From Candidatus Nitrosotenuis cloacae (lineage in GTDB: Archaea; Thermoproteota; Nitrososphaeria; Nitrososphaerales; Nitrosopumilaceae): a stretch of DNA of 64,000 bases. The notes beneath the pieces were generated by a model. That model was not told the origin of the DNA. It saw nothing but the letters and a program-made list of their open reading frames with translations, and ran no database searches. Position 1 is the stretch's first letter; each line of letters starts with the position of its first letter. Shown piece after piece: positions 45,731-48,225 of this stretch. A program made the position numbers and the translations under genes. Location: the NCBI RefSeq assembly GCF_000955905.1, contig NZ_CP011097.1, forward strand, positions 1,266,582 to 1,330,581. The letters are read 5' to 3'.

Positions 45731-45820
45731 ATGCAAGGCAAAGGTTGGTTCATTGGAATGGCAATAACTGTAGCCGTAGTTTGGTGGGGAGTAAATTACT
45801 TGTTCCCCTGGTATCACTAG
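45731..45820 (+). CDS. 29-residue single-helix membrane peptide
   Basis: A tiny ORF too short for usual gene callers: starts MQGKGWFIGMAITVAV, one hydrophobic helix (about 6-24) with a Trp-Trp pair, and ends FPWYH. A TATA-like TTTATTATT lies about 28 nt before the ATG, which supports a leaderless message. Small one-helix peptides of this kind serve as accessory subunits of respiratory complexes, but no partner gene is adjacent. The stop overlaps the end of the convergent corA gene. Confidence 0.55.
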   Translation: MQGKGWFIGMAITVAVVWWGVNYLFPWYH

Positions 45821-46836
45821 TCAGCTAGCCATTTCTTCTTGTAGAAATGCAAAAACATCAGCAGCGACGGCAAAAGCGACACTATTAGCATTATGATTAG
45901 TGTTGTATATTCTCCAAGAAAAGTCCAGTTTCCAGTCTGAATTCCGCCAGGCAGATTCACGTTCATTCCATAAAGCGCACCAACTACAGTTGGCGGAATA
46001 GTAAGGGTGAATATTATGGTCAGAGTTGCAAGTATTTTATTTGATTTCTCAGTTGAGAGCATAAAGTCAGTATCCTTGTAGATCTCCATTGTTTCCTTTG
46101 CCTCATCAAGTGTTTCTGCTACTTTGTCAATGTGATCAATTACATCATCAAAATGTATCACCAAATCATCATCTGGATTTGAGAATCGTTGAGTGTTCTT
46201 TGATGTTTCCAGTACTATTTTTCTTAATGGATGAACTATTCTGCGAAGTATGGTGATTTCCCGTCTGAGCAAAGAGATCTTTTTTGGTGTGGACTTGTTT
46301 TCATCAAACACGTCATCTTCTATCTCATCTAGGTTTTCCACAATTCTGCGCAATGTATGAAGCAGATCATCTACCAGTACATCAATTATTTTGTAGAGTA
46401 AAAATCCAGATGATTTGCCAAGCAGTTCGTTTCGGTATTGAGAATTATCCTTGCAGTGATTCACCATGTCGACTAGCGGCTTTAGTTCGCCGTAATGAAT
46501 GGTGACTAGATAGTCTTTGCCAATAAAAACAGAAAGTTGGTTGAATCTAGACATGCCACGCTTTAGCGCAAGAGGTGGGAAATGCAGTATGATAAAAGAA
46601 TGATCGTCATAGTTATCGATTTTTGCGAGTTGGATTTTTGAAATAGAGTCATCCAGATTTAGAGAATTGAAATTGTACATTTGTCCTAGTTTTTCAATTT
46701 CTGCACGGTCTGGGTTTTGAATGTCAGTCCAAGTAAATCCATTTCCTTGTATGGTCTCAAGGCGACTCTGAATAACCTCGCTTGGTTGCGGATGACGTCT
46801 TAGGTGTGGTAGTTTGGAAATGAATAATTCTTTCAA
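45817..46836 (-). CDS. corA: CorA family magnesium/divalent-cation channel
   Basis: 339 residues. A large N-terminal cytoplasmic alpha/beta domain (about 1-270), then two C-terminal helices with the YGMN motif (YGMNVNLP) at the end of the first, the selectivity signature of CorA. The last residues are basic (KKKW). TTG start at 46836 with AATTTAAATT about 30 nt upstream. It may carry Mg2+, Co2+ or Ni2+, the last being relevant to the NPN genes in this window. Confidence 0.92.
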   Translation of the reverse strand: MKELFISKLPHLRRHPQPSEVIQSRLETIQGNGFTWTDIQNPDRAEIEKLGQMYNFNSLNLDDSISKIQLAKIDNYDDHSFIILHFPPLALKRGMSRFNQLSVFIGKDYLVTIHYGELKPLVDMVNHCKDNSQYRNELLGKSSGFLLYKIIDVLVDDLLHTLRRIVENLDEIEDDVFDENKSTPKKISLLRREITILRRIVHPLRKIVLETSKNTQRFSNPDDDLVIHFDDVIDHIDKVAETLDEAKETMEIYKDTDFMLSTEKSNKILATLTIIFTLTIPPTVVGALYGMNVNLPGGIQTGNWTFLGEYTTLIIMLIVSLLPSLLMFLHFYKKKWLAD

Positions 46837-46929
46837 GGCAGCTGACCTGCTTTGATAATTAATTTAAATTTTCATTACCATAGCGCGAACAAACTTTGCA
46901 CAAACTACGTAATTTTGTGCAATATTTTG

Positions 46930-46938
46930 AAAAACAAC
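46930..46938 (-). terminator. T-tract after the ncRNA candidate
   Basis: On the minus strand GTTGTTTTTC follows directly after the 3' strand of the closing helix, the layout of an archaeal RNA-gene terminator. Confidence 0.5.
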
Positions 46939-46941
46939 CTG

Positions 46942-47033
46942 GCGTGGCCCCAAGCGTAGAACTCGAGAGAATACCTCTCCACCCATAACGCCAAGGCATT
47001 AATGGTTCAACATTTCGTTCTACTGAGCCACGC
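46942..47033 (-). ncRNA. Structured non-coding RNA candidate (92 nt)
   Basis: On the minus strand the ends pair perfectly (GCGTGGC / GCCACGC). Inside, GTAGAAC pairs with GTTCTAC, and the enclosed loop holds a hairpin CCAT(T)AATGC-CTTG-GCGTTATGG with one bulge and a GAGAG-GTATT-CTCTC hairpin, giving a junction of two arms on a two-part stem. It is GC-rich against an AT-rich surround. The minus strand is preferred because TTGTTTTT follows the 3' end and a TATA-like CTATAAG is upstream. It is not a tRNA (no T arm) and not 5S rRNA. Class unknown. Confidence 0.6.
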
Positions 47034-47146
47034 ACGGTTTATTTGTTAGGATTTACATCCTTCCGCATTATTTCTTATAGGAAGTTATGATATTTAAGAT
47101 TTAATTCCAAGATTTTGATAAAACAAGAGCTTAACTTCAAAGTTTT

Positions 47147-47200
47147 ATGGCTACCGATCCAACAAAGATTTCATATTTCATGACACAGAACCAGTTTTGA
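47147..47200 (+). other. 17-codon upstream ORF overlapping the taw1 start
   Basis: ATG at 47147 opens MATDPTKISYFMTQNQF and stops at TGA 47198-47200, overlapping the taw1 ATG by one base (TGATG). It could be a translated leader coupled to taw1, or chance. Leadered messages are the minority in this organism, so it stands out. Confidence 0.3.
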
Positions 47201-48225
47201 TGAGCTGTTCTGGGGAATTTGTAGAGGACAATGAAATCATACAGATCAAATCCTCCATCCAACAGCAGCTAAAGAAAGCCAAGTATGGAGTATCGGATCA
47301 TTCAACTGTAGAGTTATGTCATTGGACAAAAAAATCCTTCAAAGGTGAGGAAAGCTGCTACAAGCACAAGTTCTATGGCATATCAACACACCAATGCATG
47401 GAGTTCTCACCTGCAGGTATGTATTGCGAGAACAGATGTGTGTACTGTTGGCGCCCAATGGAATTTTATGATTCACTGGTAATGGATCCTACGCGAGTTG
47501 CAGAGCCACAGGAGATAATTACAAAACTAATGGCAGAGCGACGTGGACTGATCATGGGTCATTATGGTGATCCAAAATCCATTACAAAAAAACTAGACGA
47601 ATCATTGCTTCCAGCACATTATGCAATATCATTGTCTGGGGAGCCAACAATGTATCCAAAGCTGCCAGAGCTGATAAAATACCTAAAGACACTGCCTGCA
47701 ACAAAATCAATCTTTTTGGTAACAAATGGCCAAGAGCCACAAATGTTGCAAAGACTGCAAGACGAAGATGCATTGCCAACTCAGATTTACCTGTCCACAA
47801 ATGCAGCAGACTATGATTCCTTTATGAGAATAAACAAGCCAAGATATGATGATTCTTGGGAGCGATGGAACAAGTCTTTGGAATTATTATCAAAACTAAA
47901 TACGCGAACGGTTCTTCGTATGACACTAATTCGAGACCACAACAATTCTGAGTCAATGATTCCATCATTTGCAAGCATGATAAAAAGAGCAAATGTCCAC
48001 TTTATTGAAATCAAGTCCTACATGCACATTGGTCGCTCCACAAATAGATTGGCCAGATCAGACATGCTAGAATTTGAAGAGGTTAGCCACTTTGCGACGC
48101 AATTAGCAAAGCAAAGCCAAATCTATTCAGTAATGGACGAGAGTATTGCCTCAAGAATCGTTTTGTTGCAGAACCAAGAACGATTAATCGATCCCTTTAT
48201 TGCCGCTTATGCACAAACCAGCTAG
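47200..48225 (+). CDS. taw1: tRNA wybutosine-synthesis radical SAM enzyme (4-demethylwyosine synthase)
   Basis: 341 residues from ATG 47200 (TTG 47197 is also possible; numbering below counts from that TTG). Archaeal Taw1: the radical SAM cluster at C77, C81 and C84 (CENRCVYC) plus the second-cluster cysteines C41, C54 and C67, with the 13-residue spacing known from the family. It condenses pyruvate carbons onto N1-methylguanosine 37 of tRNA-Phe to make the tricyclic wyosine base. It overlaps the convergent ITPase gene by 29 nt. Confidence 0.94.
   Translation: MSCSGEFVEDNEIIQIKSSIQQQLKKAKYGVSDHSTVELCHWTKKSFKGEESCYKHKFYGISTHQCMEFSPAGMYCENRCVYCWRPMEFYDSLVMDPTRVAEPQEIITKLMAERRGLIMGHYGDPKSITKKLDESLLPAHYAISLSGEPTMYPKLPELIKYLKTLPATKSIFLVTNGQEPQMLQRLQDEDALPTQIYLSTNAADYDSFMRINKPRYDDSWERWNKSLELLSKLNTRTVLRMTLIRDHNNSESMIPSFASMIKRANVHFIEIKSYMHIGRSTNRLARSDMLEFEEVSHFATQLAKQSQIYSVMDESIASRIVLLQNQERLIDPFIAAYAQTS

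Follow-up and report, generated by a model that had tools for sequence, protein, structure and literature searches.

We describe here a gene of the ammonia-oxidising archaeal family Nitrosopumilaceae that we hold, with high confidence, to be free-standing and to encode an RNA in which a covarying fold is joined to an open reading frame (ORF) of nine codons. The window in which it was found is a 64,000-nt stretch (C1:1266582-1330581) of an archaeal genome assembled as a single contig of 1.62 Mb, where the gene lies between corA (Pfam CorA, 45817-46836, minus strand) and a plus-strand radical-SAM gene (47197-48225) that includes a wyosine-formation domain. The gene itself, like all of its elements given below, is on the minus strand and extends from a putative 5' end at 47069, the A before the ATG, to a 3' end in the T run at about 46930. 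These ends were placed from the promoter and the T run, and covariance models match 46937-47069 end to end. A preliminary description had delimited a 92-nt structured RNA at 46942-47033, which is the larger part of the gene; comparison within the genus revealed that the conserved unit begins at A 47069, 36 nt further 5', and contains the nine-codon ORF. The predicted transcript would measure approximately 135-140 nt and begin at the start codon or one base before it. This arrangement suggests an RNA that is controlled by, or acts on, the ribosome reading it.

The 92-nt fold is real and belongs to the minus strand. Folding of 46942-47033 gave -38.2 kcal/mol, compared with -24.7 ± 2.9 kcal/mol for 200 shuffled sequences, none of which was as good (z -4.7). 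All of the helices named in the preliminary description, including the two inner hairpins, are present. The closing helix P1 (GCGUGGC/GCCACGC, nine pairs in total) is formed by 47025-47033 and 46942-46950, and the second helix P2 (GUAGAAC/GUUCUAC) by 47017-47023 and 46956-46962. The inner hairpins are P3 (46981-47006) and P4 (GAGAGGUAUUCUCUC, 46965-46979).

Among 61 distinct sequences, standard pairs occupied 91.1% of the pair cells, compared with 82.1% after shuffling and 39-49% with slid partners, a control that is too favourable, the model having guided the alignment. Changes on both sides were observed in 29 of the 37 base pairs (203 cells against 54.5 expected; 0 of 500 shuffles), and the compensatory changes that a covariance model built from relatives had been proposed to look for are abundant. 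In P1, 97.6% of the cells are paired and both-side changes occur in six of nine pairs; the corresponding values for P2 are 98.4% and six of seven, and in P3 all nine modelled pairs are affected. A double change in P2 is visible by eye (GCAGAAC/GUUCUGC to GCGGGAC/GUCCCGC). P4 is the least variable helix, with changes in relatives from GAGAG/CUCUC to GUGAG/CUCAC, again recognisable by eye, and to GGGAG/CUCCC. The GAGAGG sequence of P4 was also considered as a mimic of a Shine-Dalgarno sequence and rejected: its partial complementarity to the 16S 3' end is equally explained by the stem and is not present in all copies.

The upstream promoter candidate of the preliminary description appears genuine and is assigned to the TATA box CTTAAATA at 47091-47098, which is conserved among the copies at a nearly fixed distance. 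The minus-strand oligo-T stretch after the fold was likewise found, at 46930-46934; it is the likely transcription end, and a T run occurs at a similar place in many relatives (CGCCTTTT in Nitrosopumilus). The layout in the copies consists of a TATA box, 22 nt, a start codon, almost always nine codons, a stop codon, 3-5 nt and P1. A start codon with a short ORF was located 27-31 nt from the first TATA base in 104 of 110 distinct copies, most commonly at 30 nt (76 copies) or 29 nt (15 copies); in the other six, another box was apparently picked, and their ORFs can nevertheless be recognised. Such spacing is appropriate for an archaeal promoter with transcription predicted to start at the start codon or one base before it.

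In the window, the predicted leaderless ORF occupies 47039-47068 and reads ATG CGG AAG GAT GTA AAT CCT AAC AAA TAA (MRKDVNPNK*). Among 90 distinct copies, an ATG directly follows the first base in 88 and the ORF has exactly nine codons in 84, ending in TAA (68), TAG (14) or TGA (8). The two start-codon exceptions are misplacements by the model, and nine codons are read from the proper start in both (MAEKSAHMT in L090, MLVQCRMMD in L095). Length variants have 8 or 10 codons and preserve the frame. In a set of ten ORFs with below 60% identity, from which one mis-called row (L074) was left out, every stop falls at codons 9-11; by shuffling, the chance is about 0.12 for each and about 1e-9 jointly. 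The ORF also contains a 5' hairpin, P0 (AGGAU GUAA AUCCU, 47048-47061). Against shuffled sequences, P0 has a mean z of -3.0 in type A copies, with both-side changes, and a mean of -1.0 (median -0.6) in the sister type C described below. Because the type A ORF folds as a hairpin and the type C ORF hardly does, the ORF rather than P0 is the common element.

A start and a stop that are kept without a kept peptide could be accounted for if the folded domain were the sole functional part and the ORF only disposed of ribosomes that load on a transcript starting with AUG and would otherwise invade the domain. Many archaeal mRNAs are leaderless. However, the problem would not arise if transcription began at a site lacking a start codon, whereas every copy seen begins with such a codon, and the length is held at nine codons, rarely 8 or 10, although any short frame would serve. 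We therefore regard a purely protective ORF as rather improbable.

The start, length and stop of the ORF are kept, while its peptide, judged from the aligned sequences, is not conserved. Peptides vary widely between copies (MSLVIKSNE, MMSISISTE, MLVQCRMMD, VQKRVKSNK), and pN/pS was 0.42 for the corA copy, 0.72 for the commonest copy, 1.9 for type C and 4.0 for the copy facing a PurP-like gene; these values are a rough guide only, because P0 overlaps the type A ORF and constrains the same bases. They bear on the reading of the gene as a dual-function small RNA, in which the domain pairs with mRNAs and the nine-residue peptide has a function of its own. Such a reading has an archaeal precedent in leaderless small ORFs inside small RNAs, as in sRNA154 of Methanosarcina mazei (PMC11456600), and in Nitrosopumilus and Nitrosarchaeum the peptide predicted from the ancestral copy hardly varies (MPKDIIPID). 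Against it stand the wide differences among peptides, pN/pS values above 1 in two groups and the lack of any conserved unpaired seed that stands out among the aligned copies. We consider a dual function unlikely, though it deserves more weight than a protective ORF.

The distribution of the gene was determined at three scales. By DNA similarity alone, it was detected in 15 of 16 other Ca. Nitrosotenuis genomes, eight of them with a second detectable copy. With a refined covariance model, 126 of 300 genomes from the order were positive; all belong to one family and make up 126 of the 132 sampled Nitrosopumilaceae, with 1-4 copies per carrying genome. In a sample of the phylum, 36 of 250 genomes were positive, again Nitrosopumilaceae only, and none was found outside this family by the covariance model in the 300 order and 250 phylum genomes. 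The genome of the window contains three copies, at C1:1313518-1313650 (that of the window), C1:23744-23877 and C1:874652-874788. One copy is shared, at the same place, by a contig of N. chungbukensis MY2 (L122) and another genome of its genus (G011). No exact pattern match to the RNA was found in viral contigs, and matches in Bifidobacterium, a Chlorobiaceae bin and a Desulfuromonadales bin were rejected as chance, having no meaningful model score.

Two public bins labelled Nitrososphaeraceae (L121 and L145) carry copies of the RNA. These labels are probably wrong, since the copy of one bin matches that of a Nitrosopumilaceae genome (G211) in position and score; the bins are probably mislabelled or mixed. 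In Nitrosarchaeum sp. BD3 (G237), identical copies were observed on a large and a short contig (L062 and L063), which may reflect assembly redundancy rather than a true duplicate.

The sister type C (model R3) is strong in five genera and absent from Nitrosotenuis. It lies between aroC and aroA in most of the copies looked at, from Nitrosopumilus, Nitrosarchaeum and relatives (L249-L259, L273-L302), and all 27 of its 27 ORFs have nine codons, with a GTG start in three. Type C is placed on the opposite strand within the aroC-aroA spacer, and might affect aro transcripts in antisense. A further divergent group (L260, L262, L263), located near an msrA-like gene in one genus, has a GTG start and nine codons in three copies.

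The surroundings of the copies argue for a gene that is independent of its neighbours. In most cases, the next downstream gene is convergent. On one side of the commonest copy is a divergent gene of the SDR family, and on the other a convergent gene whose 145-aa product gave no Pfam match; a transcription factor B gene is nearby. The end of this copy is only a few bases from the stop codon of the 145-aa gene. Other copies face the PurP-like gene or aroA; the names SDR, TFB, PurP and aro are our own, assigned from the sequences. The closeness of the commonest copy to the convergent stop codon would fit a bidirectional terminator or insulator between convergent genes, which we consider very improbable because it leaves the promoter, the ORF and the covariation of five helices unexplained and because some copies are not convergent.

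In Nitrosotenuis, the copy found in the window is followed on the same strand by corA, at a distance of 64-114 nt, and it is the only one of the groups seen to have a same-strand gene downstream as a rule. It is this position that would favour a cis-acting riboswitch or leader controlling corA. In the species compared, however, corA keeps its own conserved TATA-like box approximately 30 nt before its start codon, as the preliminary description had supposed, and the other copies face convergent genes (the 145-aa protein gene, the PurP-like gene and aroA) instead of a same-strand gene sharing their transcript. Because most copies are convergent to the next gene, we interpret the RNA as a free-standing gene and not as a riboswitch of corA; control of corA in cis is already contradicted and extremely improbable. 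The earlier suggestion that this is a free small RNA outside the known classes, rather than a riboswitch, agrees with this, while a purely non-coding reading is probably wrong in view of the predicted leaderless nine-codon ORF. Between the RNA gene and corA, a perfect 9-bp inverted repeat (TTGCACAAA...TTTGTGCAA, 46896-46922) was also observed; it is kept only loosely across other species of the genus and could be a regulator site of corA.

Comparison with Rfam 15, using the window and other copies, returned only tRNAs elsewhere above the gathering cut-off, and the best weak matches had E-values of about 0.5 or worse; guide RNAs of the C/D and H/ACA kinds were addressed indirectly, through this comparison. 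Neither a lack of compensatory changes nor membership of a known family, the outcomes that would have spoken against the preliminary description, was observed. Neither ARAGORN nor Rfam reported a tRNA or tmRNA at the locus, and no tRNA-like fold or T arm was found, in agreement with the preliminary description. The RNase P and SRP RNAs were rejected as candidates, as the genome has its copies of them elsewhere (C1:1074413-1074693 and C1:121160-121470). No description of this RNA and no published regulatory RNA of Nitrosopumilaceae was found in the literature searched. Members of this family rank with the most common archaea of seawater and groundwater and drive nitrification. The RNA, previously uncatalogued and absent from Rfam, is nearly universal in them and often present in multiple copies.

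The fold, covariation, promoter, ORF geometry and independence from neighbours are all read from sequence; from them we infer that the gene is transcribed and translated, that a ribosome controls a switch and that the RNA acts in trans. The transcript would be read as a leaderless mRNA, with its start codon at or one base from the 5' end. One ribosome would read nine codons and terminate 3-5 nt short of P1, the base of a compact domain in which the P1/P2 stack would bear the hairpins P3 and P4. The 27 nt between start and stop correspond roughly to the footprint of one ribosome, so there should be no room for a second. At the stop codon, this ribosome would lie over the ORF, with P0 melted and P1 opened at its base. 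Since the ribosome would reach several bases into P1, translation is proposed to control the folding of the domain, whose open and closed states would be toggled by ribosome occupancy. The RNA may then act in trans on ribosomes, on an RNA-binding protein such as Lsm, or on mRNAs. No target was found: complementarity of the RNA to the rRNA operon, the sole target candidate compared, was not above that of shuffled sequences. Working from distances alone, we propose such a ribosome-controlled switch.

The chances appear evenly balanced that the act of translation, and not the peptide, is the input, that ribosome occupancy switches the state of the domain and that the RNA acts in trans; any exact biochemical role is less probable than this. 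More tentatively, the gene may represent a new RNA class in which a single ribosome at the 5' end, terminating nine codons on against a folded domain, is the sensor, and the supply of ribosomes or the speed of termination sets the state of a trans-acting RNA independently of the peptide. An ORF fixed at nine codons without a fixed peptide is unusual, and it opens translation-coupled RNA function in archaea to direct testing.

Several known systems share features with this RNA. In leader peptides with attenuators and in leaders controlled by upstream ORFs, translation of a very short ORF controls folding just downstream, as it would in the adjacent RNA here. Most of the Nitrosopumilaceae copies, however, control no downstream gene, and no attenuator-type codon bias was seen in their ORFs. 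tmRNA likewise has a short reading frame within a folded, stable RNA, whereas the present RNA is predicted to carry a start codon of its own at the 5' end, a tRNA-like domain was not found in it and ARAGORN identified no tmRNA. Tan1, a 229-nt RNA of marine Euryarchaeota whose role is not known, is also a lineage-specific structured archaeal RNA, but it belongs to another phylum, is longer and has no ORF reported in the part of the source consulted (PMC5069720). In Haloferax volcanii, ribosome-associated small RNAs with reported ribosome occupancy have been described, most without coding evidence (PMC12482152); those were obtained by ribosome profiling in a different lineage, whereas ribosome contact in Nitrosopumilaceae is deduced from the conserved ORF. 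The nearest precedent for the layout, sequence relation aside, is sRNA154 of M. mazei, like the predicted RNA a small free-standing RNA with a leaderless 5' small ORF, reported as 20 aa, and an RNA part (PMC11456600). In contrast, the ORF of Nitrosopumilaceae has nine codons, a near-fixed length and no conserved peptide, and its domain is a covarying multi-helix junction present in 1-4 copies per genome.
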